The notes under the pieces were generated by a model. The model was not told the origin of the DNA, ran no database searches, and was given only the letters and a program-made list of their open reading frames with translations. Of a DNA stretch of 64,000 nucleotides, positions 36,628 to 48,878 are shown in pieces (positions within the stretch are counted from its first letter, which is position 1; every line of letters begins with the position of its first letter). The DNA is taken from positions 19,736 to 83,735 of the forward strand of contig JAFTGH010000012.1 in the NCBI GenBank assembly GCA_017458005.1, read 5' to 3'. This DNA comes from Prevotella sp. (GTDB lineage: Bacteria > Bacteroidota > Bacteroidia > Bacteroidales > Bacteroidaceae). The position numbers and the translations under genes are program-made.

Positions 36628-37582
36628 TGTTATCTTTGTTTTGTTTCTCTTTGTCGAATCGTTCGTAGGCATTGACGATACGGGTCACCAGTTTGTGGCG
36701 TACGATGTCCTTGCGATCCAGTTCCACCACACCGATACCCTCGATGTCCTTTAATATGCGCAATGCCTCCACCAGTCCACTCCTCTGCTCACGGGGCAGG
36801 TCTATTTGTGTCATGTCTCCCGTGATGATCATCTTCGTGTTCCATCCCATACGGGTCAGGAACATGCGGATCTGCTGGGGAGTAGTGTTCTGTGCCTCGT
36901 CGAGGATGACGACAGCGTCACTCAGTGTCCTGCCTCGCATAAAGGCGAGTGGGGCAATCTGGATGACATGTTTCTCCATCATGTCCTGCAGTTTCACCTG
37001 TGGCAGCATGTCCTCCAATGCGTCATACAGTGGCTGGAGATACGGATCAATCTTGTCCTTCATGTCACCAGGCAGGAATCCCAGTTTCTCTCCGGCCTCC
37101 ACAGCGGGGCGGGAGAGGATGATCTTCTTCGCTGTCTTGTCCTTCAGCGCCTTCACGGCAAGGGCGATAGAGAGGTAGGTCTTTCCCGTTCCCGCAGGAC
37201 CGACGGCGAACACCATGTCGTTCTGCTCGTAGGCGTCAATCAGTTTCTGCTGGTTCTCCGACCTCGCCTTGATGGCACGTCCTGACATGGAGTAGCATAC
37301 CACTCCCTCAGGCACCTCGTCTTTCGTGCGGTGTCCCTTGATGATGTCCAGGATGTCCTCCTCCTTCAGCGAGTTGAAGCGCAGCACATGCTGGCGCATC
37401 TTCTCGGCACTCTCCTCGAAGGCTGCCATCTGCTCCTCATCGCCCAGGATGCGGATGACATTGTCGCGAGCCACAATCCTCAGTTTGGGATACAAGGCAC
37501 GCATCATCTGCAAATGGGCATTCCCCGTTCCATAGAAAACGACGGGGTCTATATCCTCTAATACAATATGCTTCTCTATCAA
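36605..37582 (-). CDS. phoH: PhoH-like ATPase
   Basis: A 325-residue P-loop NTPase of the PhoH family: Walker [37 protein letters not shown] and [16 protein letters not shown] (Walker B). PhoH proteins are associated with RNA metabolism (YbeZ type); the exact role in Bacteroidales is not known. Start: no ATG lies near the expected N-terminus; TTG at 37582 ([10 protein letters not shown] read as Met) fits the family, and a TAACTTTG -7 element lies at 37609-37616 on the minus strand. Confidence 0.9.
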
Positions 37583-37944
37583 AATAACGTTATTTCTTAA
37601 TGAGATTGCAAAGTTACGAAAAAAGCTTGTAAAGAACAACGGATTATGGAGAATTAACGCAATTCAACCTAAAATAAAGGTAAAACGGGGAAGAACGAGG
37701 AAGTCGGAAAGTCGGGGTAATGCAAAATAGGGAGGATTGATGAAGGAGTTAGGTTTCTAAATCGTAACCCTGAAATGGCCTTGAAGACGTGGTTAAAGCT
37801 CAATAATTGACTACGAAAATCGGGGCAGAATGACGCACTCTTCACCGCCCGTTTCTTATTCCGCAAACTGCTACATTTTGCATAATGATGGATAACCCAA
37901 AAGACAGTAGTTTCGCAGCCCAAAATTAAAAAGGAATAAGAAAC
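37583..37944. other. phoH promoter and left end of element 2
   Basis: A 360-bp gene-free stretch. It holds the minus-strand phoH promoter (-7 at 37609-37616), the left 19-bp att-like repeat of element 2 (37752-37770) and the integrase leader. Nothing else stands out. Confidence 0.7.
37752..37770 (+). repeat. candidate attL of element 2
   Basis: GGTTTCTAAATCGTAACCC. The ends GGTTTC and GTAACC are imperfect inverted arms around a 6-7-bp centre, the shape of a tyrosine-recombinase core site; the two differences from the right copy both fall in that centre. Confidence 0.6.
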
Positions 37945-39165
37945 ATGAGAAGTACATTCAACATTTTGTTCTACGTGAACAAGAGTAAGGAGAAGAACGG
38001 TGTGGTGCCTGTGATGGGACGTGTGACTATTAACGGCACTCAGAGCCAATTCAGTTGCAAGAAGTCCATCCCGCTTGATATGTGGGACGTGAAGGGCAAC
38101 TGTGCCAAGGGACGAAGCAAGGAGGCTTTGCAGATTAACCGTGAGTTGGATAACATCAAGGCGCAAATCATCAAGCACTATCAGCGTCTGTCAGACCGCG
38201 AGGCTTTTGTGACGGCAGAGATGGTGCGCAACTCCTATCAAGGCTTTGGCAGCGAGTATGAGACACTGTTGAGTGCTTTCGACAAGGACATTGCCAACCA
38301 GAAGAAACGTGTGGGCAAGGACAGGGCTGCAAGTACGCTTTGGGCTATGGAACGTTCGCGGAAGGATGTGGCTGATTTCATCCAATCGCACTACCGTCGC
38401 ACTGATATGTCGATGCTTGAACTGACACCTGAATTCATCAAGGACTTCGCCACCTATCTCAGTACTGACCGAGGATTGGCCAATGGAACTATCTGGCAGA
38501 GATGCATGTGGCTGAAAGGCGTTGTACTGAGGGCGCACTACAACGGCAAGATTCCCCGTAACCCGTTCGCGCAGTTCCACATCAGCCCGAACTGCAAGGA
38601 AAGGGAGTTCCTGACCGAAGACGAACTGAAAGCTGTCGTGACGCATGAGTTTGAGGACGACAACCTCGCCTTCGTGCGTGACATCTTCGTCTTTGTCTGC
38701 TTCACCGCCCTCTCGTTCATCGACGTGAAGAACCTGACCACGGATAACATCGTGAACGTCAATGGCGACAAGTGGATTATCAGCAAGCGGCACAAGACTA
38801 ATATCCCTTTCCAGGTGAAGCTGATGGACGTTCCCTTGCAGATTATCAACCGCTATAAACACCTACAGGAAGACAAGTTGGTGTTCGGCAAGATGAACTA
38901 CTGGTCGATGTGCAAGAAACTGAAAACGGTGATGACAGCCTGCGGCATTGAGAAAGCCATATCCTACCATTGTGGCCGGCACTCGTTCGCCACGTTGGCG
39001 CTTTCAAAAGGAATACCCATCGAGAGCGTGAGCCGTGTATTGGGACACACTAACATCGTGACCACCCAGATTTACGCCAAAATCACAAGTCAGAAACTTG
39101 ACAACGATCTGACAATGCTCGGCAATAAACTCAATGCATCGTTCAAGGACATAAAGAGAGCATAA
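37945..39165 (+). CDS. tyrosine integrase of element 2
   Basis: A 406-residue phage-type integrase of the Bacteroidetes conjugative-transposon kind. An N-terminal arm domain (STFNILFYVNKSKEKNGVVPV) and SAM-like domain (about 105-205) precede the catalytic part, where HxxR (342-345, HCGR), His368 in LGHTN and Tyr377 in QIYAKI are visible. As in element 1 the first Arg position reads FTALSFID, without the Arg. Its GC content resembles the host more than the cargo genes. A strong hairpin (39193-39237) follows. Confidence 0.92.
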   Translation: MRSTFNILFYVNKSKEKNGVVPVMGRVTINGTQSQFSCKKSIPLDMWDVKGNCAKGRSKEALQINRELDNIKAQIIKHYQRLSDREAFVTAEMVRNSYQGFGSEYETLLSAFDKDIANQKKRVGKDRAASTLWAMERSRKDVADFIQSHYRRTDMSMLELTPEFIKDFATYLSTDRGLANGTIWQRCMWLKGVVLRAHYNGKIPRNPFAQFHISPNCKEREFLTEDELKAVVTHEFEDDNLAFVRDIFVFVCFTALSFIDVKNLTTDNIVNVNGDKWIISKRHKTNIPFQVKLMDVPLQIINRYKHLQEDKLVFGKMNYWSMCKKLKTVMTACGIEKAISYHCGRHSFATLALSKGIPIESVSRVLGHTNIVTTQIYAKITSQKLDNDLTMLGNKLNASFKDIKRA

Positions 39166-39271
39166 CCACTAACGGCGCATAAATACTCCAAAGCAGAAAG
39201 ACGAATGATTAGCGTTGTCTGTCATCCGTCTTTCTGCGTTATAATCCCACAGCACACGAACCACTAACGGC
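39164..39271 (+). repeat. 13-bp direct repeats around a hairpin
   Basis: AACCACTAACGGC occurs at 39164-39176 (straddling the integrase stop codon) and 39259-39271. Between them lies the hairpin GCAGAAAGACG (39193-39203)/CGTCTTTCTGC (39227-39237) with an inner ATGA/TCAT step, probably a terminator for the integrase and the converging HTH genes. Confidence 0.7.
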
Positions 39272-39284
39272 TCTTTCTTTTTCC

Positions 39285-39587
39285 CTATCGTTTATATGCA
39301 GGATGATAGCAACTTTCCAGAACTCTTGCCAAATCACTTTCACGATAAAGTACCTTGCCACCTAATAATATATATGGTAGCATGCTATCATTTCGGTATT
39401 CCTGTAGTGTTCGTCTGCTGACTTTTAGAATACTGGCTACCTCCCTGTCTGTTAAGTAGCGCTCACCATCAAGCAATGGACGATAATTGCCTATTACCTT
39501 CTTGTATATGGCAAGCACCTCCTTCATGTTCTCTAGTGCATTCTTCACACCAACGTTATGCGGCATTATCAATTCGTTCATAGGCAC
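39285..39587 (-). CDS. HTH excisionase-like protein A
   Basis: A 100-residue protein with a C-terminal MerR/HTH_17 fold: YLTDREVASILKVSRRTLQEYRND (about 44-67) then the wing LPYILLGGKVLYRESDLARVLES. A helical N-terminal part precedes it. It overlaps the second HTH gene by 10 bp. Paired HTH genes beside an integrase are common in Bacteroidetes elements and often act in excision or its control; which of the two is the excisionase cannot be told. Confidence 0.78.
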   Translation of the reverse strand: MPMNELIMPHNVGVKNALENMKEVLAIYKKVIGNYRPLLDGERYLTDREVASILKVSRRTLQEYRNDSMLPYILLGGKVLYRESDLARVLESCYHPAYKR

Positions 39588-39898
39588 TCAGTTTTGAGGT
39601 TACACATTTTGCTATCTTTATCCTTATCAGTCACAATAAAAAGAATACTCTCCACATCCTCTGGCTTATAATATACCTTGCGGTTAATTTGAGAATACGC
39701 TAACGTTCCATTGTCACGAAGCGTTTGTAATGTTCTTGGACTAATGTTTAGAATCTGGCACACATCTTGGTTGTCAAGCCAATCGCCCAACTTTTTGTCA
39801 TTGCCTCTACTTGCCATCTCCTTCATCTTTGTGACGAAACTATTGAAGCTCGTCAGCAGCTCCTCGTAGGTACTGCGCTCAATTGATACTACTTCCAT
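39578..39898 (-). CDS. HTH excisionase-like protein B
   Basis: A 106-residue protein of the same type: LDNQDVCQILNISPRTLQTLRD (about 41-62) with the wing AYSQINRKVYYKPEDVESILF, and a Lys/Asp-rich tail. It is the first gene of the minus-strand pair, divergent from the cargo operon; the 380 bp between them carries the left 49-bp inverted repeat. Confidence 0.78.
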   Translation of the reverse strand: MEVVSIERSTYEELLTSFNSFVTKMKEMASRGNDKKLGDWLDNQDVCQILNISPRTLQTLRDNGTLAYSQINRKVYYKPEDVESILFIVTDKDKDSKMCNLKTECL

Positions 39899-40047
39899 GT
39901 CTGTTTAGTTTTTGTAATTTGCGGACAAAGGTACACCATAATCTCCAAATAGGCTTATTATGAAAATTCCTTGTTGTGAAATAACAATTCAGGGAAATAA
40001 AAACCTAATGTCTGCCGAGCTTGCTCATCTGAAAATGGACAAGCATC

Positions 40048-40096
40048 TTTGTGTGGCACTTCACAGAAAAGTGCGTATTAGGCTACACCCTTCTAC
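40048..40096 (+). repeat. left copy of the 49-bp inverted repeat
   Basis: Begins TTTGTGTGGCACTT and continues ..AGAAAAGTGCGTATTAGGC; 43 of 49 bases match the reverse complement of 46189-46237. It contains GCACTT-7 nt-AAGTGC, an imperfect recombinase-site-like palindrome. GAGCTTGCTCA lies 20 bp outside it (40017-40027). Confidence 0.88.
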
Positions 40097-40246
40097 GGCA
40101 TCTATGTATGGTATTGCGAGCAATTGGTGTGTGTATACCTACTTTTATTGTGGTATAATACAAGAAAAAACAGTTCGGCTTTTGGAAATGATGATGATTA
40201 TACTTATATTTTATTAATTACATGATAATGAATTAAAATTTATGTG

Positions 40247-40254
40247 TATCTTTG
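40247..40254 (+). promoter_or_regulatory. promoter -7 element of the restriction-like operon
   Basis: TATCTTTG, 26 bp before the first operon gene; the -33 box is not clear in this AT-rich stretch. Confidence 0.55.
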
Positions 40255-40280
40255 CATCGGTAAAACAAAAATGTAGCAAA

Positions 40281-41066
40281 ATGAAAATGCAGAAAGTACT
40301 GGAATTTAATGGAATGTCTTTTGAATTGCTATTAGCAGATAGAGACAAGGAAGATTTTCCTCGTGAACGTTTTAGGGCAATTCTCAGAATAAAAAACATA
40401 AGTATTTCTAAGAAAAAAATTGCTATTAAGGAAGACGGAACAAAGTACATTTCAATAAAGCATGGTTTGGAATATGCATATCATATTAAGCCATACCAGT
40501 TTGCATTAACAGACGGTACATTCATACTTCCAGATTCATTTGCTGATGTGACAATACAATTTGATGTTGTCAAGGAGGCTCAAAACGGGGATAGAATGGA
40601 AATAGAGGTAAGAGATTTGGCATTATTACCCCTTGTCAAATGGGATGGTCAATGGTATTGGGGTATCGACGAAATTGAGGATAAGAGGATTTCTTCGAAT
40701 TCAAATAGAGAATTGACCTATGAAGAAAAGAAATCCCTAAAAAAACAGCTTAAGAGCAAAATAGAACACTTTGAATCCATTGATGAGAAGTTCGGTTTGT
40801 CTCTCCAAAATTTCTCTTTTGACATTCTTGATAACTCTACATTGAAATTGTTCTGCGAAGTATTAGCTTTAAACGGTGAAGTTCCGAAAGAAGGATTTAA
40901 TGTTGAAGTGGCTATTTACGACACGGACAATGATATTATCTGCTTAAAGAGTATATCCAAATATGACAATGAATTCAAAGGATTTGAGGTCTTTGGATTT
41001 GGGCCAATAAAGTTGGACATTCCAGTTGATGAAATAGGAAAAATTAGATTTTATCCGACAAGATGA
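40281..41066 (+). CDS. unrecognised beta-rich protein, first gene of the restriction-like operon
   Basis: A 261-residue soluble protein that I cannot assign. It seems to have two strand-rich halves: about 1-120 (FRAILRIKNISISKKKIAIK; YQFALTDGTFILPDSFADVT) and about 165-261 (LKLFCEVLALNGEVPKEGFN; FKGFEVFGFGPIKLDI; ending GKIRFYPTR), joined by a charged helix (YEEKKSLKKQLKSKIEHF). The second half looks like a beta-sandwich of the kind that recognises a ligand or partner. It overlaps the GHKL ATPase gene by 4 bp (ATGA), so both are made together. The ATG at 40281 is preferred to the upstream one at 40242, which lies on the promoter. GC content is clearly lower than in the host genes. Confidence 0.7.
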   Translation: MKMQKVLEFNGMSFELLLADRDKEDFPRERFRAILRIKNISISKKKIAIKEDGTKYISIKHGLEYAYHIKPYQFALTDGTFILPDSFADVTIQFDVVKEAQNGDRMEIEVRDLALLPLVKWDGQWYWGIDEIEDKRISSNSNRELTYEEKKSLKKQLKSKIEHFESIDEKFGLSLQNFSFDILDNSTLKLFCEVLALNGEVPKEGFNVEVAIYDTDNDIICLKSISKYDNEFKGFEVFGFGPIKLDIPVDEIGKIRFYPTR

Positions 41067-43099
41067 ACGTGAGTATAAATGAATTAAGGGATTCTCTCAT
41101 AAGGGAGGCAAAGAGTTCTCCTATGTTGCTTTCTGATCTTGCAGGCTTAGAGGCATACGTTTCTGAAAGCTATAATAGTCGCTCATTCATAGAACTGTTG
41201 CAAAATGCTGATGATGCAGGCTCGACGAGATTTTATGTAAAGCGCTATGGTAATTACCTTTTCGTTGCAAATGATGGACGACCTTTCAATATAATGGACT
41301 TAGAAAGCCTGTGTCGCAGCGCTTCTTCCAATAAAGCGAGAGGAACTTCTATCGGTTATCGAGGAATAGGCTTTAAGTCGGTAGTCAGTTTTGCTAAAGA
41401 GGTCCATCTTATAAGTGGTGAATTTGAAATAACTTTTTCAAAGGAGTTGACAAAGACTATTATTGATAAGGCAAATAAAGTTCCGCTAATCAGGATCCCT
41501 CATGAACTACAACAGAATGTCAAGCAAGAACTTGATACGGAAATATCCAAGATTCAGAAAGATGGCTATAATACGATCTTCATTTTCTCAGGTGTGACTG
41601 CAAATCAAATAGACGAAGAATACACTTCATTTGCTTATACAACCTTGATGTTCTTGAACAACGTGAGAAACATTAAAATCAGTTTGAATAAAGAAGTAAA
41701 TGCAAGTATCAATGTTTTAGAACAAAATGGAAGTAAAAAAAAGATAAGAATCGCAACCAATGAGAAGATCACGGAGTGGCTTGTTTGTTCTAATGATAGT
41801 TGTAGTATCGCATTTGCAATTAAGAATGGTAAGATAAACAGATTAGCAAGGGAAGAAGCTGTGATTCATGCCTTCTTGCCAACAGATGATTGTTGTGGAC
41901 TAGGTTTTATTGTTAATGGTGATTTTAGTACTGACCCATCACGCAGACATCTCATATTTGACGAAACAACAAAAAAAGTTATTACTGATATAACCAAATT
42001 GTATTGTAAGATTCTACAACAAGGCCTGCAAGAAGACAATGAAGGTTTATTAAATGCCATGATGCCCTACTTTGATGTTAAGCTCATCCAGTTAATGAAG
42101 CAATCTTTTGAAAGGGAGTTCGCAAATCTACTGAAAACTAATTGTAGTACCCTGTTCTCAAAGTTCAGACTCTCACCGTCATGGTTCAATGCTTCTGATT
42201 TCCATATTATTATGTCATCTGCAGCCAAGCCCTGTATAAGTCCTGAATGCGCCGAAGTAATTTACTTAGATGGTATGTTAAAATTTTTAGGGAGCAAGAC
42301 ATGTGACATAGACACAATATTATCCTTAGTAAACTCTGCTGATATATCGCTAAATGGTTGTGCTCAATTAGCTGCTTATAGTATGAAACAAATCTTGATG
42401 AATCACAAGGTCAGTGCGTTTACTAAGACGCCTATTTTTGTCAGTGGAAGTGAACTACGCAGTATAAATGATATCAATGATAACGAGAATGAGATTGATG
42501 ACTGTTTTTTGCAACTGATGATTGACAATGGCATATCAAATAAGGACATTGGCATATGCCTAAAAAAATTGGGAATGAATGATTTGTTTGACTTACAATT
42601 CAATGAAGAGATTCCCGATGAATCAGATACTGATGACTGTGACTCTGCCAGATCTTCTTCCAGTATAAGAGATTGGTTCAAAGCCAGTTCATCTTCATCG
42701 TCTGTACCTACATCGTCAAGTGTTCAGAAATGGAGAAGTGCAGAGGAAAATACGCTTGCTGCACTTAATGAAAATGGCTTTAATTTATCTGATGTCAGCA
42801 TGCAAAATGTTGGATATGATTTATCGGGGATTGATCCTAATGGAAACAAAATCTATATCGAAGTAAAATCTATTGATTACGCTGGACAGAAATTCAGAAT
42901 GACAAACAATGAGTTTGCTGCTGCACAATATAATCAGGATAACTACTATATTGCTATAGTTCATCAGACAAAGGAAGCATTGGAAATAAGTCTTGTGAAA
43001 AATCCTATTCGAAATCTTAATATGAACAGACAATGTGTCCAATGGGTCTGGGAATGTTCTGGCTATGAATACAACCCGATGAAATTCGAGTTGAAATAA
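41063..43099 (+). CDS. sacsin-like GHKL ATPase with DUF3883 domain
   Basis: A 678-residue protein. The N-terminal GHKL (HSP90/MutL/sacsin type) ATPase is shown by FIELLQNADDAGST (42-55; Glu44 and Asn48 for ATP hydrolysis and Mg), VANDGRPF (68-75) and the glycine box SIGYRGIGFKSV (96-107). A middle region of about 300 residues is unassigned, then an acidic and Ser-rich linker (about 515-553). The C-terminal DUF3883 domain (about 555-650) contains VGYDLSGIDPNGNKIYIEVKS: Asp586 and Glu600-x-Lys602 fit a PD-(D/E)XK nuclease core. GHKL ATPases linked to nuclease domains were described as restriction systems related to MORC/MutL. The partner nuclease gene is 29 bp downstream. Confidence 0.85.
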   Translation: MNVSINELRDSLIREAKSSPMLLSDLAGLEAYVSESYNSRSFIELLQNADDAGSTRFYVKRYGNYLFVANDGRPFNIMDLESLCRSASSNKARGTSIGYRGIGFKSVVSFAKEVHLISGEFEITFSKELTKTIIDKANKVPLIRIPHELQQNVKQELDTEISKIQKDGYNTIFIFSGVTANQIDEEYTSFAYTTLMFLNNVRNIKISLNKEVNASINVLEQNGSKKKIRIATNEKITEWLVCSNDSCSIAFAIKNGKINRLAREEAVIHAFLPTDDCCGLGFIVNGDFSTDPSRRHLIFDETTKKVITDITKLYCKILQQGLQEDNEGLLNAMMPYFDVKLIQLMKQSFEREFANLLKTNCSTLFSKFRLSPSWFNASDFHIIMSSAAKPCISPECAEVIYLDGMLKFLGSKTCDIDTILSLVNSADISLNGCAQLAAYSMKQILMNHKVSAFTKTPIFVSGSELRSINDINDNENEIDDCFLQLMIDNGISNKDIGICLKKLGMNDLFDLQFNEEIPDESDTDDCDSARSSSSIRDWFKASSSSSSVPTSSSVQKWRSAEENTLAALNENGFNLSDVSMQNVGYDLSGIDPNGNKIYIEVKSIDYAGQKFRMTNNEFAAAQYNQDNYYIAIVHQTKEALEISLVKNPIRNLNMNRQCVQWVWECSGYEYNPMKFELK

Positions 43100-43128
43100 A
43101 TGGAGGATAACAAAACACGGCATGAATT

Positions 43129-44511
43129 ATGAAATTACATATCTTAGGAAAAAATAAGAAAGATAAGGGAGGCCAGTTGGAGACCTTGACCAAGCTCATA
43201 TTGGCAAATCAAGGTTATACAAATATAACTTTAAATTACATCGGAACTGGAGGACATGAAATTGATGTTTATGCTATAAGGAGACAAACCGTCGGTATTA
43301 AAGAAGTAGAGTACCCTGTAATTTGCGAATGTAAGGCTCATGAAAAAATGATTTCAATGCCTGATTATGACAAGTTCAAGGGAAAAGTCACAACTGCAAA
43401 AGAAAAGAATAAGAATACATCAGGTTTACTTATTGCTCTTTCTGGAGCTATGGGAACTGTTATAGGAGCTAATGATGCAAATAAGAGTGATATACAATTA
43501 ATTGCTAATGACGATATTACAAGACTAATATCTCAATTATACTCTTTGCCATCCCCATTTGAAGTTAGAAACTATATAAGAGGTATAACCCATAGAGTTG
43601 TTGTTAATGTTGATATTGTATATTATAATAATGAGGTATATTGGCTCATAATATTTAGCAAAGGCAATTATATCCTATTTGATAGGTCTTTTAGCACAAT
43701 AGAAGCCTCCTTATTAGTTGAAATCCAGCATTTGTTAGTCAAAGTTGCCCCTGTATCTGAATATATAGACATATTTCAGGAACAAAAGGCTTTCATGAGG
43801 AAAACTTTTATTGAAAGTTCTATTATAATGTACCTAATGTCAGATAGAGTCGGCATCGATGATCTACTTACAAAAGTGAAAGACTCATCAATTATTACGA
43901 CGAAAAAAGAAATAAGAAATCTTATCAAGGAAATACCATTTGTTGTAGAAATATCTAAAGACTATTACGAACTACTTCCAGAAGAAGAGATTTCTTATAT
44001 TGACTTTTACGAGTTTGTGCTAAGAGGAAGTGTTGATCTTCAGATGTTTTCTCATTGTTATTATACAGATCATATTGACGAGAGTCTCCTTGAAAAGATA
44101 AAAGAAAGACAACACTATATTGTCATTCCAAAAGAAAAGGAAGATGAAGTGCTGTTTTTGTTAAAACATTCTCCTTCTGCTTTAGCATATGCTATTGAGG
44201 AAGATAAAAATATTACAAGATATCGCGGCAAAGATGGTAAGTGCATGTCTGAAAGAATTGACAAGGGACATAGCCTTATGTTTCTTGACAACATAATGGA
44301 TCGATTTGATAAAGACTATTGTAAAAATAGTCCTTTAGGTAACTATTACATGAATGATTTGGGTATAAATGATATTATTAGAAAGAAAGAGTTGATAATA
44401 AACTGCAATAATGGGGAGAAGCATATCGTTTCTCAAGAGCAAGATATTATGTTATGCAAATTACAAGGATATGAGAATACAATAGTTCCCGTCCGAAAAT
44501 TACCAGATTAA
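43129..44511 (+). CDS. Mrr-like PD-(D/E)XK restriction endonuclease-type protein
   Basis: A 460-residue protein. The N-terminal 110 residues form a restriction-endonuclease-like fold: an early helix with Glu (GGQLETLTKLILANQGY), GTGGHEIDVYA with Asp46, and YPVICECKA with Glu67-x-Lys69, the PD-ExK active site as in Mrr and related type IV nucleases. SGLLIALSGAMGTVIGAND follows as the next core strand. The C-terminal 330 residues are unassigned, mixed alpha/beta and AT-coded. Third gene of the operon. A cognate methyltransferase is absent, so self-protection must come from target modification dependence, activation control, or genes elsewhere. Confidence 0.85.
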   Translation: MKLHILGKNKKDKGGQLETLTKLILANQGYTNITLNYIGTGGHEIDVYAIRRQTVGIKEVEYPVICECKAHEKMISMPDYDKFKGKVTTAKEKNKNTSGLLIALSGAMGTVIGANDANKSDIQLIANDDITRLISQLYSLPSPFEVRNYIRGITHRVVVNVDIVYYNNEVYWLIIFSKGNYILFDRSFSTIEASLLVEIQHLLVKVAPVSEYIDIFQEQKAFMRKTFIESSIIMYLMSDRVGIDDLLTKVKDSSIITTKKEIRNLIKEIPFVVEISKDYYELLPEEEISYIDFYEFVLRGSVDLQMFSHCYYTDHIDESLLEKIKERQHYIVIPKEKEDEVLFLLKHSPSALAYAIEEDKNITRYRGKDGKCMSERIDKGHSLMFLDNIMDRFDKDYCKNSPLGNYYMNDLGINDIIRKKELIINCNNGEKHIVSQEQDIMLCKLQGYENTIVPVRKLPD

Positions 44512-44637
44512 TTTTTTATAGTGGAAGAAATCTGTTGTTGTGTTACTATATATTTATGGACGAAAAGTGGCGTTGTATGACAAATAAGGTTCTTTTAATG
44601 ACAAATGTATGATTATTTTTCTATACGAAATATAAAT

Positions 44638-46167
44638 ATGGACGAGAAAACAATAAAGGAAGCACTGATTAAAGGCGAACGAGTGACGCTGGAGTGTAAG
44701 CGGGCTAAGGCGGAGGTACCGAAGTCGGTTTGGGCAACCTATTCGGCTTTCGCTAATACTATTGGCGGACTGATTCTTCTTGGTGTGAATGAAGACATAC
44801 AGGAGAAGGACATCCAGAAGCGTTACCAGGTAGTTGGCGTGGATGAGCCGATGAAGATTATCACGGACTTCTGGAACACCCTCAACAGCGACAAGGTGAA
44901 TGAGAACATCCTCCTTGACAACGATGTTGAGGTGGTAAATGTGGATGGAGCACAGATTGTTTGCATTCGTGTTCCTCAGGCAGACTGGAGAGCGAAGCCC
45001 ATCTATCTGAATGGCAATGTATATAAAGGTACGTATAGACGCAACAATGAAGGTGATTACCATTGTACAGAGGCTCAGGTTAAAGCGATGATACGTGACT
45101 CCAATGTGGATGGTAACGATAGTATCTTAATAGAATACTACGGCATGGATGACATTGATCCAGATTCCTTGCGGCAGTACCGCACTGAGTTCAGGCAAGA
45201 GAATAGTACCCACGTTTGGAACAGGGTTGACGATAAGACTTTCCTCAGAAATCTTGGTGGCTATACTGAGGACAGACAGACAGGCAGAGAGGGATTGACG
45301 CTGGCCGGACTGATGATGTTTGGTAAGGGCCTTGCCATTAGAGACCGTTTTTCTAACTTTCGCATGGACTATCTGGACATGAGCCATCTGGTGGGTGACG
45401 AGCGATACCATGACCGACTGACATACGACGGACTTTGGGAAAATAACCTATACCAGTTCTTCCGCATCGTATCACCAAAGGTGCAGTTCGACCTGCCGAG
45501 ACCTTTCAAATTGGAGAAAGGTGGCAAGAGAAATGACGACACACCTCAACATGAGGCTGTTCGTGAAGCCTTTACCAATGCTATTATCCACTGCGACCTG
45601 ATGATGGATGCTGGCATTCTAAGAATAGAGAAGCATGATGACCGTCTCTGCTTCCGCAATCCTGGCTTGCTGAAGTTGCCAGTAGAGGCTATCTATCGAG
45701 GTGGTAACTCCAAGGCTCGTAATCCAAAAATTCAGAATATGCTTCGTATGATTGGCTTTGGTGAGAATGTTGGCTCAGGTTTCCCCAAGATTATCGCAGC
45801 ATGGAAAGAAACCAATTGGGGTGAGCCACAGCTGATGAATAAATTAGATGTTGACGAGGTGGAACTGGTGCTGCCTGTACCATCGACTAATTCCAGTATT
45901 GTAGGGTTGTCTGATGAGTTATCCATAGAGTTGCCTGAAGGGTTGTCTATAAGGTTATCTAAAGAGTTGTCTAAAGGGTTATCTGAAACTGCCGCTAACA
46001 TATATAAATTGATATATGCTGATAACTATATCACAAGGAGTGAGATTGCGAATAGAATCGGAATATCTGTAACAGCAGTCCAAAAGCATATCAATAAACT
46101 TAAATCTTTGAGATTCATTGACCGTGACGGATCTACAGGTCACGGTAGTTGGATAGTAATAGAGTGA
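44638..46167 (+). CDS. AlbA_2/Schlafen-like ATP-binding transcriptional regulator
   Basis: A 509-residue protein of the AlbA_2 + HATPase_c_4 type. The N-terminal AlbA_2 (Schlafen-like) domain (about 10-125: VTLECKRAKAEVPKSVWATY; FANTIGGLILLGV) is followed by a GHKL-like region (about 290-385: HEAVREAFTNAIIHCDL; GENVGSGFPKI) and a C-terminal winged helix (about 450-490: NYITRSEIANRIGISVTAVQKH). Between the last two is a tetrapeptide repeat (Leu every fourth residue, seven times) coded by a 12-bp tandem repeat. It starts 126 bp after the nuclease gene, and its base composition is closer to host genes than that of the preceding operon, so it may have a separate origin. The ATG at 44638 is preferred. 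Confidence 0.85.
   Translation: MDEKTIKEALIKGERVTLECKRAKAEVPKSVWATYSAFANTIGGLILLGVNEDIQEKDIQKRYQVVGVDEPMKIITDFWNTLNSDKVNENILLDNDVEVVNVDGAQIVCIRVPQADWRAKPIYLNGNVYKGTYRRNNEGDYHCTEAQVKAMIRDSNVDGNDSILIEYYGMDDIDPDSLRQYRTEFRQENSTHVWNRVDDKTFLRNLGGYTEDRQTGREGLTLAGLMMFGKGLAIRDRFSNFRMDYLDMSHLVGDERYHDRLTYDGLWENNLYQFFRIVSPKVQFDLPRPFKLEKGGKRNDDTPQHEAVREAFTNAIIHCDLMMDAGILRIEKHDDRLCFRNPGLLKLPVEAIYRGGNSKARNPKIQNMLRMIGFGENVGSGFPKIIAAWKETNWGEPQLMNKLDVDEVELVLPVPSTNSSIVGLSDELSIELPEGLSIRLSKELSKGLSETAANIYKLIYADNYITRSEIANRIGISVTAVQKHINKLKSLRFIDRDGSTGHGSWIVIE
45907..45990 (+). repeat. seven 12-bp coding repeats
   Basis: Seven tandem 12-base units such as TTGTCTGATGAG, TTATCTAAAGAG and TTGTCTAAAGGG, in frame, coding Leu-Ser/Pro-x-x tetrads between the GHKL-like and winged-helix parts of the AlbA_2 protein. 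Units have diverged at several bases. Confidence 0.85.
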
Positions 46168-46188
46168 GATAATCGACATGTCATTACG

Positions 46189-46237
46189 GTAGAGGGACGT
46201 AGCCTAATACGCACTTTTCTAGCAAGTGCCACACAAA
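46189..46237 (-). repeat. right copy of the 49-bp inverted repeat
   Basis: The reverse complement of this segment matches 40048-40096 at 43 of 49 positions; TGAGCAAGCTC (46262-46272), the inverse of the left GAGCTTGCTCA, lies 24 bp outside it. Confidence 0.88.
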
Positions 46238-46294
46238 ATGCCGCAATCAGTTCAAGAGCGTTGAGCAAGCTCAAAAGAAAAAGTTGATCCCTGA

Positions 46295-46372
46295 TTTGTT
46301 CAGTTCGAAGAAATTATGTACCTTTGCACCCGATGATGAGTCATAGTACGGTTGCTGGCTCAGCATCGGGTG
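46295..46372 (+). ncRNA. promoter followed by short stem-loop (possible small RNA)
   Basis: TTTG (46295-46298), 20 bp, TACCTTTG (46319-46326) is a full promoter match. Directly after it CACCCGATG (46327-46335) pairs with CATCGGGTG (46364-46372), with an inner TGAG/CTCA step, followed by TTCTTTG. Either a very short RNA, an attenuator-like stem, or protein-binding DNA at the element end. Confidence 0.4.
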
Positions 46373-46412
46373 TTCTTTGATGCAGTTTATAGCAGAATGT
46401 GGAATTGAGTAC

Positions 46413-46431
46413 GGTTTCCAATTCGTAACCC
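46413..46431 (+). repeat. candidate attR of element 2
   Basis: GGTTTCCAATTCGTAACCC, 17/19 identical to 37752-37770 in direct orientation. Confidence 0.6.
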
Positions 46432-46630
46432 CATTTTCTTTCAATTCTCCAGACTGCCTTTATACAAAGAAAAGCTGAGAATTCTTACATAGTTACGAAA
46501 AATCGAGAGCAGAACAAAATAAATTTATTTATTTTTTATGCCGATCCCTACATAGTCGCTGTAAAGTGCCATTGTTCTCGACCTGAAGTGCCGTTGTAAT
46601 CAATTGTTGGAAGCATCCTAATCGGTTGTC

Positions 46631-46730
46631 GACTCCAGTCGACAGACCTGCCGACTCCAGTCAACCAATCGTTTGACTCCAGTCAACCGGTCTGCCGACT
46701 CTAAGTCAACCGATCGTTTGACTCTAAGTC
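46631..46730. repeat. five palindromes on a 22-23-bp grid
   Basis: GACTCCAGTC at 46631, 46653 and 46675, then GACTCTAAGTC at 46697 and 46720. Each is a GACT/AGTC palindrome, some extending to TTGACT..AGTCAA. Flanks alternate (GCC.. then GTTT..), so the last four copies form two 44-46-bp dimers. It ends about 98 bp before the DUF5715 start. Confidence 0.88.
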
Positions 46731-46827
46731 AACCGGTAGTCTCTCCCATGCCAATCACTTTTCTTTGTTGTTTTTGTCTCTTAATCCTTCGCTTTTTACA
46801 AAGAAAATGTGTACCTTCGCAACCAAA

Positions 46828-47556
46828 ATGAAGATAACGAAGAATAAATATCTGTTAGGATTCGCTATTGTGGTAGTGATACTCGCAATAGTGAGGGCGA
46901 TTTTTCCTGAGGTTGACAGAGGACAACTGACAATGGAGAATGAGCAGTTGACAGCCCAGAGCCCAGAGCCAACTGCTAATAGTCCAGAGCCAACATTCAA
47001 TGGCAAGAAACACCGTATCTGGGGTGTTCGTAATTACAGAGAGTCTTTTCCTGACAGTCAGCAGGTACAGATTCTCGCTGCGGAGAAATGGGGGGTGCGC
47101 CCCGTGAAGAACCGTGAGGACGCGGAGATGCGCAAGAAGGAACTGGTGTACGTGGGGGCAAGTCCCTATTATCATGTGGACCCGCTATATAGTTCCATCC
47201 CGTATCTGGTGCCTCGTGCCGCCGTCCTTTTGGAGGATATCGGAAAGGCTTTCTATGACAGTCTGTACGTGAAGGGTGTTCCCTTGAACCAGTTGATCGT
47301 CACCAGTGTGCTGCGCTCTGAGTCGGATGTGGAAAAACTGCGCCGAAGAAATGGTAATGCGACAGAGCGCAGTTGCCATCTCTTCGGCACGACTTTTGAT
47401 ATTTGCTATAATCGGTATCACCCTGTCACCCAGCCAGTTCGTGACGACACGCTCAAGTGGGTGCTGTGCGAGGTCCTGCGTGATATGCGGGAACAGGGAC
47501 GCTGTTATATCAAGTATGAGGTGAAGCAGGGGTGCTTCCACATGACCGTCCGTTAA
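46828..47556 (+). CDS. DUF5715 family protein, membrane-anchored
   Basis: A 242-residue protein with an N-terminal membrane helix (YLLGFAIVVVILAIVRAIF), then a low-complexity Gln/Glu/Pro/Thr stretch (about 30-57) and a globular periplasmic domain that matches DUF5715: YYHVDPLYSSIPYLVPRAA; LIVTSVLRSESDVEKLRR; SCHLFGTTFDICY; CYIKYEVKQGCFHMTVR. The S-x2-R, H-x6-D and terminal H pattern is like DD-peptidases of the M15 kind, so a cell-wall peptidase role is plausible but not shown. The ATG at 46828 excludes an upstream extension lacking the helix. Confidence 0.75.
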   Translation: MKITKNKYLLGFAIVVVILAIVRAIFPEVDRGQLTMENEQLTAQSPEPTANSPEPTFNGKKHRIWGVRNYRESFPDSQQVQILAAEKWGVRPVKNREDAEMRKKELVYVGASPYYHVDPLYSSIPYLVPRAAVLLEDIGKAFYDSLYVKGVPLNQLIVTSVLRSESDVEKLRRRNGNATERSCHLFGTTFDICYNRYHPVTQPVRDDTLKWVLCEVLRDMREQGRCYIKYEVKQGCFHMTVR

Positions 47557-48878
47557 CGGCTCATCAGGAAGCGCTTGAAGTCCTCAAACTCCTTGGTCAT
47601 CTCCACACTTTGCTTCTGTCCTCTCATGAAGGCGGCAAGGCGTTCGGGTATCTCCACATCACCACTGATGATGCTGTCTACCGTCTCCTTGAACTTAGCG
47701 GGATGTGCCGTCTCACAGAACACGCCGACCTCTCCGTCCTTGAGTCCTTCTTGCAGGGCACGATAGCCGCAGGCGCCATGCGGGTCGAGGATGTATCCTG
47801 TCTCGGTATAGCACTGGCGCATCGTCTCACGAATCTGCTCATCGTTATAGGTCGCACCACTGATCAGTGCCGTGATGCGCTCATGACTCTTACCGTAGAG
47901 GTCATAGATACGGGCGAAGTTAGAGGGATCGCCCACGTCCATTGCATTGGCGAGTGTCTGTACGGATGCCTTGGGCTCATACTTACCCGTCTGCAGGTAT
48001 TTATAGAAGATGTCGTTGGCGTTATTGGCGGCAATGAAACGCTTGATAGGCAGTCCCATCTCATGTCCGAACAAGGCGGAGCAGATATTGCCGAAGTTAC
48101 CACTGGGTACGCACATCACCATTTGGTCTGCCTTGCCCAGAGCCTTCATCCGCGCATAGGCATTGAAATAGTAGAATGCCTGTGGCAGGAAACGGGCGAC
48201 ATTGATACTGTTGGCAGAGGTCAGTTTCATGTGACGGTTCAGTTCCTCGTCCATGAAAGCCGACTTCACGAGCGCCTGACAGTCGTCGAAGACACCATCC
48301 ACCTCAATGGCGGTGATATTCCTGCCGAGTGTCGTAAACTGGCTCTCCTGTATCTTACTCACCTTCCCTTTGGGATAGAGCACGTAGACGTGGATGCCCT
48401 CCACGCCGAGGAAACCGTTGGCAACGGCACTGCCCGTATCGCCACTGGTTGCCACGAGGACGTTGACCTGCTGGTTTGTTGCTGTGGTACAGCAACCAGC
48501 AGAACTGCGTCGGATAAAATACTGCAACAGCCTTGCCATGAAACGAGCGCCCACATCCTTGAAGGCGAGGGTAGGACCGTGGAAGAGTTCCAGGGTGTAG
48601 ATGTTCTCCTTGACCTTCACCACAGGGCAGTCGAACGACAGGGTGTCATACACGATGCTCTTCAATGCCTCCGCCTCCACGTCCTCACCGAAGAATGCGT
48701 CGGCGACGGTATAGGCGATCTCTTGGAAACTCTTGGTCTCAATGGTGTCGAAGAACTCCTTGGGCAGTGGCTTGATGCGTTCTGGCATATAGAGACCACG
48801 GTCCTCGGCGAGTCCTTTCACTACTGCTTTCTGCAGGTCGGCTATGGGAGCCTTTCCGTTTGTACTGTAGTATTTCAT
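47553..48878 (-). CDS. thrC: threonine synthase
   Basis: PLP-dependent conversion of phosphohomoserine to threonine. A 441-residue enzyme with the usual N-terminus (MKYYSTNGKAPIADLQKAV), the PLP-lysine in TLAFKDVGARF, and the glycine-rich phosphate loop VATSGDTGSAVANGF. Its start overlaps the ApgM-like gene stop by 4 bp, in the operon thrA - ApgM-like - thrC. Its 3' end overlaps the DUF5715 gene end by 4 bp on the other strand. Confidence 0.96.
   Translation of the reverse strand: MKYYSTNGKAPIADLQKAVVKGLAEDRGLYMPERIKPLPKEFFDTIETKSFQEIAYTVADAFFGEDVEAEALKSIVYDTLSFDCPVVKVKENIYTLELFHGPTLAFKDVGARFMARLLQYFIRRSSAGCCTTATNQQVNVLVATSGDTGSAVANGFLGVEGIHVYVLYPKGKVSKIQESQFTTLGRNITAIEVDGVFDDCQALVKSAFMDEELNRHMKLTSANSINVARFLPQAFYYFNAYARMKALGKADQMVMCVPSGNFGNICSALFGHEMGLPIKRFIAANNANDIFYKYLQTGKYEPKASVQTLANAMDVGDPSNFARIYDLYGKSHERITALISGATYNDEQIRETMRQCYTETGYILDPHGACGYRALQEGLKDGEVGVFCETAHPAKFKETVDSIISGDVEIPERLAAFMRGQKQSVEMTKEFEDFKRFLMSR

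Follow-up and report, generated by a model that had tools for sequence, protein, structure and literature searches.

Among curated defence systems, Tiamat (TmtA; PDLC03964-03972) consists of a single gene. Its models in PADLOC are 1,063 to 1,782 amino acids (aa) long and combine an N-terminal sacsin-type GHKL ATPase domain with a C-terminal NOV_C domain, the two being separated by a long central region; the accessible part of a paper on Tiamat (PMC12629846) gives no mechanism. VcSduA, a GHKL-type Shedu protein (type I-D; paraMORC3 architecture), likewise joins an N-terminal GHKL ATPase to a C-terminal PD-(D/E)xK nuclease, in its case DUF4263, within one protein that has no partner. According to PMC12137116, the E27A or K557A change in VcSduA abolishes defence, growth curves fit direct restriction that spares the host, and control of the nuclease by the GHKL domain is the authors' proposal. 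GHKL ATPases are also linked to restriction-type nucleases in the MORC/paraMORC operons, which often include helicases and methyltransferases; the GHKL-S5 modules in these operons have been proposed to bring about looping of DNA (Iyer et al. 2008, PMC2292703). In PMC3710099, DUF3883, the other name of NOV_C, is called a novel restriction endonuclease (REase) domain, and sacsin is described as a chaperone in animals. Here we analyse a pair of genes that fit neither Tiamat as PADLOC models it nor Shedu, though gene 2 has ends that are built like both and that probably work like them. The pair lies on an integrative element in a Prevotella sp. genome (assembly GCA_017458005.1), within a 64,000-nucleotide (nt) stretch of contig JAFTGH010000012.1 (positions 19,736 to 83,735), which we call the window; coordinates are counted from its first base.

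With moderate confidence, we read the two genes, gene 1 and gene 2, as a two-component, methyltransferase-free restriction module in which the gene 2 nuclease is licensed by ATP and a third gene, gene 3, is optional. Some kind of defence function for the pair seems very probable. The genes, domains and possible promoter concerned are as follows.

40247 to 40254, plus strand: possible operon promoter TATCTTTG, which fits the −7 box TAnnTTTG and was spotted by eye
40281 to 41066, plus strand: gene 1, 261 aa from this ATG, a small partner without a known family
41063 to 43099, plus strand: gene 2, a 678 aa mini-Tiamat GHKL-NOV_C protein
41063 to 42022, plus strand: GHKL ATPase of gene 2 and the region following it (E44, N48, G72, G98, G101, G103, K105)
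42722 to 43096, plus strand: NOV_C/DUF3883 domain of gene 2, with a D586-E600-x-K602 motif
43129 to 44511, plus strand: gene 3, a 460 aa Mrr-type nuclease (D46, E67, K69), accessory and outside the conserved unit

Genes 1 and 2 overlap by 4 bases, genes 2 and 3 are separated by 29 bases, and all three lie on the same strand. Their GC content is 34, 36 and 32%, respectively, compared with 48% in the window outside the element. An earlier note on this DNA had placed three open reading frames at these positions, overlapping or 29 bp apart, and had called them AT-rich and part of an integrase-bearing island; all of this was borne out, and the island is now delimited to 37606-46502. An in-frame ATG at 40242 offers an alternative start for gene 1 that would give a protein of 274 aa. 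The consensus of the Bacteroidota −7 box is TAnnTTTG; TATCTTTG is not among the strict −33/−7 promoter matches. Rfam gave no match at its gathering score in 37300-47600.

The recurrence of the genes in other genomes indicates which of them belong together. Genome contigs were scanned with an alignment of three gene 2 sequences and two peptide patterns; 118 stretches matched a pattern, of which 17 were relatives, at 15 loci, all in Bacteroidales (14 records from metagenome-assembled genomes [MAGs] or uncultured organisms and one isolate, Segatella albensis). In all 15 loci gene 2 is immediately preceded by gene 1, and gene 3 is present in none of them within the flanks covered, and the conserved unit is therefore genes 1 and 2. 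Two loci duplicate others in gene layout (L008 duplicates L007, and L017 duplicates L015; L and G numbers are our labels for loci and genomes), and among the 13 nonredundant loci the junction between genes 1 and 2 is a 4-base overlap in 12 and abutting in 1. When 301 family genomes were searched with each protein, gene 1 was found in three (its own genome, G113, and G285) and gene 3 in two (its own genome and G148); apart from the own genome, those with gene 1 differ from those with gene 3. At the level of the phylum, the gene 1 profile matched 1 of 296 genomes, namely, its own. The earlier note had taken the three genes for one system and had looked to recurrence of the triad elsewhere; in the loci found, the triad fails to recur whereas the pair does, and we reject the three-gene unit. 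Gene 3 seems to be an optional addition, in a position occupied by other genes in related loci.

Gene 2 carries the resemblance to Tiamat. Its N-terminal part is a sacsin-type GHKL domain (NF047352, E = 3.4e-20; SACS, E = 1e-9) and its C-terminal part is NOV_C/DUF3883 (E = 3.1e-14), which confirms the fusion first proposed for it. In a piecewise PADLOC scan, residues 4-319 aligned with TmtA 12-352 of 1538 (E = 2e-44) and the NOV_C segment aligned with TmtA 1443-1519 of 1538 (E = 4.6e-15), while the middle of the protein (residues 321-553), scanned alone, matched no PADLOC model at E ≤ 0.01. Gene 2 is therefore, by prediction, a shortened Tiamat-like protein that has both end domains and lacks most of the middle. 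It differs from Tiamat in its length, which is 38-64% of that of the models, and in having a separate partner gene, which has no PADLOC match, in all 15 loci. Its difference from VcSduA lies in the nuclease, NOV_C/DUF3883 in place of DUF4263 (no DUF4263 match at E ≤ 1 in Pfam), and in the presence of that partner. The gene 2 profile was found in 7 of 296 phylum genomes at E ≤ 1e-10, and the other six matches are in frames of 836-1,674 aa, save for one cut piece of 197.

Residues of catalytic type are conserved. E44, N48, G72, G98, G101, G103, K105, D586, E600, and K602 are invariant among 14 Bacteroidales proteins (the window's included) and a protein from a Planococcus plasmid, and their equivalents are also kept in a protein from a viral-collection contig (five-sequence alignment). 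A PD-(D/E)XK core had been suspected in gene 2 from the start; the acidic residue and the ExK of that motif are present and conserved in NOV_C (D586, E600, K602). Mean pairwise identity along gene 2 is 87% in the GHKL domain (residues 1-130), 74% in residues 131-320, 62% in residues 321-520, 50% in the linker, and 83% in NOV_C. For gene 1 it is 41% over residues 1-148 and 58% over residues 149-261. These values suggest selection on both catalytic ends of gene 2 and variability in gene 1.

Gene 1 had been described as unrecognised, and so it remains: none of the families in Pfam, PADLOC, or NCBIfam matches it at E ≤ 1, and 16 members of its family scanned against Pfam gave a best match of E = 0.015. 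These 16 members align with 21 invariant columns. Over 14 loci, identity in the C-terminal part of gene 1 tracks that of gene 2 more closely (r = 0.58) than identity in the N-terminal part does (r = 0.30). We infer from this pattern a putative docking half at the C terminus and a diversifying half at the N terminus; the chances that the protein serves in recognition or docking seem to us about even. L016 and L018 each have two copies of gene 1, and a protein of 670 or 651 aa in L012 and L016 ends in a gene 1 domain. A by-eye impression of two Ig-like sandwiches in gene 1 was unsupported, the sole Ig-like match being E = 0.076 in 1 of the 16 members. Gene 1 had no match on plasmids, in phages, or in viral contigs, and neither gene 1 nor gene 3 had a match in PHROGs.

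Short proteins built like gene 2 also occur on other mobile DNA. The Planococcus plasmid protein (684 aa) is 30% identical to gene 2 over 98% and has the same short build, as does the viral-contig protein (715 aa, 30% identity). Just upstream of both is a gene of 209-212 aa (8-base overlap and 36-base gap), and these two upstream genes are weakly alike (E = 3e-4); the one on the viral contig bears no resemblance to gene 1. With gene 2 as the query, 30 plasmid records matched, one of them covering at least 80%, and with the Planococcus protein as the query, 31 records matched, of which only the protein itself covered at least 80%. Viral contigs gave no match with the whole gene 2 alignment and one locus with the GHKL alignment; follow-up scans gave nothing or the same contig again. 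Phage records held one distant GHKL match to gene 2, and none to the phage-contig proteins used as queries. Tail genes of siphophage type and an amidase gene are present on the viral contig (L069). At L069 6910-9732, the 212 aa gene and the 715 aa GHKL-NOV_C gene follow the amidase lysis gene and a 129 aa gene, a phage-borne mini-Tiamat. Prophages often carry additional genes in the region past the lysis genes. On the plasmid, L026 3720-5984, upstream of the mini-Tiamat, encodes, besides the 209 aa partner, a protein of 170 aa and one of 291 aa that matches PDC-S32 (E = 6e-10), a candidate defence family.

A defence function, dimerisation, a DNA substrate, and the role of gene 1 are what we infer. 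By analogy with VcSduA, with which gene 2 would share ATP control of its nuclease (PMC12137116), ATP-controlled cutting would be the natural model. Gene 2 would dimerise through its GHKL domain, and the conserved C-terminal part of gene 1 would dock on it. Gene 1, with its diversified N-terminal part, would recognise or report a signal of infection, such as a DNA structure, a modification, or a phage protein. ATP binding would then close the GHKL clamp on DNA and engage the NOV_C nucleases, and hydrolysis would reset the clamp. The Mrr-type nuclease of gene 3 would be an optional extra in the downstream slot and not a fixed subunit. We think it likely that the NOV_C domain of gene 2 does the cutting under GHKL control. 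The restriction module with an ATPase controlling cutting that the earlier note placed in a mobile island is in this form supported as probable, with VcSduA as its tested analogue (PMC12137116). Its description of the system as undescribed holds in part: comparison with curated defence models gave no match for gene 1 and matches to both TmtA ends for gene 2, so the locus is not wholly undescribed, while its standing as a probable defence module was upheld. No published title on the gene 1-gene 2 pair appeared among the matches listed, the subscription literature lying largely outside the search.

Tiamat proteins are very large; a natural protein of 678 residues that has the two end domains, and whose partner can be separated from it, would open the GHKL-NOV_C mechanism to simple mutation and biochemistry.

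The element that carries the pair, and its other parts, are as follows.

37606 to 46502: integrative element of ~8.9 kb carrying the genes, with terminal direct repeats and with empty sites in relatives
37606 to 37623, plus strand: left terminal direct repeat TTGCAAAGTTACGAAAAA
37945 to 39165, plus strand: tyrosine integrase (Arm-DNA-bind_5, SAM_5, Phage_integrase), 97% identical in aa sequence to that of L018
39285 to 39587, minus strand: HTH_17 protein, platform gene (excisionase model below its cut-off)
39578 to 39898, minus strand: HTH_17 protein, platform gene
40048 to 40096, plus strand, and 46189 to 46237, minus strand: left and right arms of an inverted repeat enclosing the cargo (49 nt, 88%)
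44605 to 46167, plus strand: Schlafen AlbA_2 - HATPase_c_4 - winged-helix protein, GC 45%, as the platform
46485 to 46502, plus strand: right terminal direct repeat TTACATAGTTACGAAAAA (89%)

For the empty-site test, we used the loci of 19 relatives that have the left neighbour gene (phoH-like by eye). The left flank joins the immediate right flank directly in 3 of the 19 (L071, L073, L087). In 12, a right-hand gene region from farther out is separated from the left flank by 0.14-0.81 kb, which leaves too little room for an 8.9-kb insert, and in 4 only the left flank was matched. The left platform (window 37607-40101, ~2.5 kb) is 87% identical to L018, and the right end is 87% identical to L020. 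Between L018 and the window, the integrases are near-identical but gene 2 is only 58% identical and gene 1 ~30%, and the cargo has therefore been exchanged. The integrase/HTH part of the platform and the Schlafen gene both have a GC content of 45%. The Schlafen gene probably belongs to the right end of the element rather than to the operon. As a fourth subunit it is unlikely, since it recurs at the right end of L064, where the pair is absent, and L016 has a fragment of it. As the earlier note had stated, there is no methyltransferase; neither this nor a superfamily II (SFII) helicase was found among the element's seven proteins scanned, in which respect the locus differs from the MORC/paraMORC operons (PMC2292703).

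Platform DNA was matched in 123 of 200 genus genomes, the own genome included, many of the matches being short or weak. Twenty platform regions were fetched, among them L049, which is the L018 locus, and L062, a second copy in the own genome. The right end is recognisable in ten (L051-L055, L059, L060, L063, L064, and L066); eight others end with the contig, and L067 and L068 have no right end within 14 kb. Homologues of genes 1 and 2 are present in 1 of the 20 regions (L049), several regions being cut by contig ends. We sampled the cargo of six of the ten sister elements with a right end (three proteins in L051, one in L052, five in L053, five in L054, three in L059, and three in L064); the cargo of L055, L060, L063, and L066 was outside the sample, which had no control set. 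Restriction or nuclease genes are present in four of the six: L051 has HNH, RhuM, and DUF2971; L053 has MutH, a C5 methylase, DO-GTPase1, and GAP1-N1; L054 has GmrSD and YhcG; and L064 has a type IIG restriction-modification system. L052 has a radical SAM protein, and L059 has a weak LmuB match (E = 8e-6) and a YbjQ domain. By guilt by association, this cargo suggests a role in defence for the pair. If the cargo of the element is mostly defence genes, the ends of the element could be used to search Prevotella-type bacteria for undescribed systems.

Gene 3 had been taken for an Mrr-like nuclease with a D..ExK site, and this assignment stands by way of its homologue. Pfam gives no Mrr match to gene 3 directly, but its single close homologue (L023) matches Mrr_cat (E = 7.9e-6), and D46, E67, and K69 are common to the two (35% identity in the alignment). 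Gene 3 also matches PDC-S02 weakly in PADLOC (E = 3.5e-5). Its C-terminal part, ~300 residues without a known family, sets it apart from Mrr-type and PDC loci. In G148, the homologue shares 4 bases with the gene for a Septu-like AAA ATPase of 790 aa (PDC-M62A, E = 9e-34). Next comes the gene for an HNH-like protein (PDC-M62B, E = 4e-30), and ahead of these genes lie AbiEii and what is likely its partner. Genes 1 and 2 were not recognised by eye among the frames listed around the homologue. From this sample of two loci, the Mrr protein of gene 3 would seem to accompany different ATPase systems. The operon at L048 775-8155, in which the gene 3 homologue, PDC-M62A, and PDC-M62B are accompanied by a protein whose sequence shows, by eye, an HExxH-like motif, is a possible extended Septu-like system. 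In the phylum sample, gene 3 was found in its own genome and as two weak matches (E ~1e-4) within frames of 1,029-1,030 aa that resemble NACHT proteins by eye only; plasmids and viral contigs gave no match.

Several observations weigh against the restriction-module reading. The 15 loci are not a wide sample, because they were found with two peptide patterns and are from Bacteroidales only, and two of the three family genomes with gene 1, G113 and G285, are by layout the same loci as L012 and L013. A different small gene occupies the gene 1 position in the plasmid and phage-contig relatives, and because it is replaced there, gene 1 is not essential to the GHKL-NOV_C type overall. Sequence searches of the PDB gave nothing useful for these proteins beyond a weak match of the GHKL domain to sacsin (E = 0.0032); NOV_C had no match (best E = 0.11, an S-layer protein), and neither did gene 1 (best E = 0.59). 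A profile comparison of NOV_C with the gene 3 nuclease gave no alignment, both profiles being thin. No clear defence gene was found in the sister elements L052 (one protein scanned) and L059 (three scanned). Lastly, several loci have toxin-like neighbours that a simple restriction model does not need.

These neighbours are the basis of another reading, which we hold to be possible but doubtful: the pair would be a sensor/ATPase core that switches on exchangeable killer genes beside it (HEPN-like RNase, TIR-like, AbiGi/DUF2971, or Mrr), giving abortive protection, with gene 1 as an adaptor and gene 3 as the effector here. Neighbours were counted in 14 loci, the window included. Tight same-strand neighbours downstream of gene 2 (gaps of −4 to +37) occur in 5 of the 14: the Mrr-type gene in the window (+29), AbiGi in L007 (−4), DUF2971 in L015 (+37) and L018 (+3; this one also matches PDC-S31), and an NDT/TIR-like gene in L016 (+26). 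Tight upstream neighbours (−4 to +15) occur in 6 of the 14: RDxxTH-motif proteins in L009, L012, and L016; DUF5677 in L020 and L021, where the matches fall below the curated cut-off; and a 146 aa protein without a family in L014. In L012 and L016, moreover, the gene 1 domain with its long N-terminal extension sits just behind the RDxxTH gene, and the Mrr domain of gene 3 is found beside another ATPase elsewhere. Nevertheless, such neighbours are absent within 70 bases in L010, L011, and L019, and L013 lacks one close by on the downstream side (upstream, the contig ends); the pair may therefore stand alone. The RDxxTH motif fits the HEPN motif Rx4-6H (PMC3710099), but so short a motif can arise by chance, and neither Pfam nor PADLOC gives a convincing match for these proteins. 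Defence genes also cluster by chance in islands, and the nuclease motif of gene 2 is strictly kept, which a pure sensor would not need. A broader version of this idea, which we put forward just as tentatively, is a modular immune core in which a mini-Tiamat with a replaceable partner, gene 1 being the docking adaptor, recruits exchangeable killer genes upstream or downstream and forms swappable cargo between the inverted repeats; the carrier would be an integrative element of Prevotella by which restriction systems of diverse kinds are spread.

Less probable again is a single restriction complex of all three genes, with GHKL closure controlling the nuclease domains of both gene 2 and gene 3. 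The 29-base gap, the common strand, the equally low GC content (32-36% versus 45% in the platform), and a plausible nuclease motif in both proteins would fit such a complex. It is made unlikely by the absence of gene 3 from the 15 pair loci found, by the position of its only close homologue, which overlaps a Septu-like ATPase gene with an HNH-like gene next, and by the nearest relatives of gene 2 (72%; L007 and L008), which hold another gene in the gene 3 slot, AbiGi by Pfam in L007. Very unlikely, in our view, is a function outside defence, as a sacsin-like chaperone or as a regulator serving the stability or incompatibility of the mobile element. Gene 2 is indeed cargo of a mobile element, and sacsin is a chaperone in animals; however, the nuclease motif is conserved in a domain that has been called an REase (PMC3710099), and the presence of the pair in a single platform region of the 20, several of them cut by contig ends, argues that the element does not need it.

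Further observations concern the neighbouring genes and the element. The RDxxTH proteins form a family of 206-208 aa (L009 6621-7244, L012 883-1509, and L016 4606-5226) encoded just upstream of the gene 1 domain. The same inverted copies that enclose the cargo in the window are seen in the sister elements L052, L053, L054, and L063, where they might serve inversion, cargo exchange, or termination. L063, L064, L066, L067, and others are nonautonomous derivatives, in which the left ~165 bases are followed almost at once by the cargo-side region and the integrase is mostly or wholly lost; in L020, the integrase gene stops after its first codons. The insertion site at 37606-37623 overlaps a minus-strand TAACTTTG, resembling a −7 box, ahead of the phoH-like gene. 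In the right end, at 46295-46326, there is an outward-reading, promoter-like match, TTTG-N-TANNTTTG, directed towards the chromosomal neighbours, and a short way outside the right end, at 46637-46726, are four imperfect 23-nt tandem repeats. The second platform copy in the own genome (L062; G000:C23:31600-39813) is 68-75% similar and has different genes behind it, including those for proteins of 126 and 310 aa that appear by eye to be mobilisation related.

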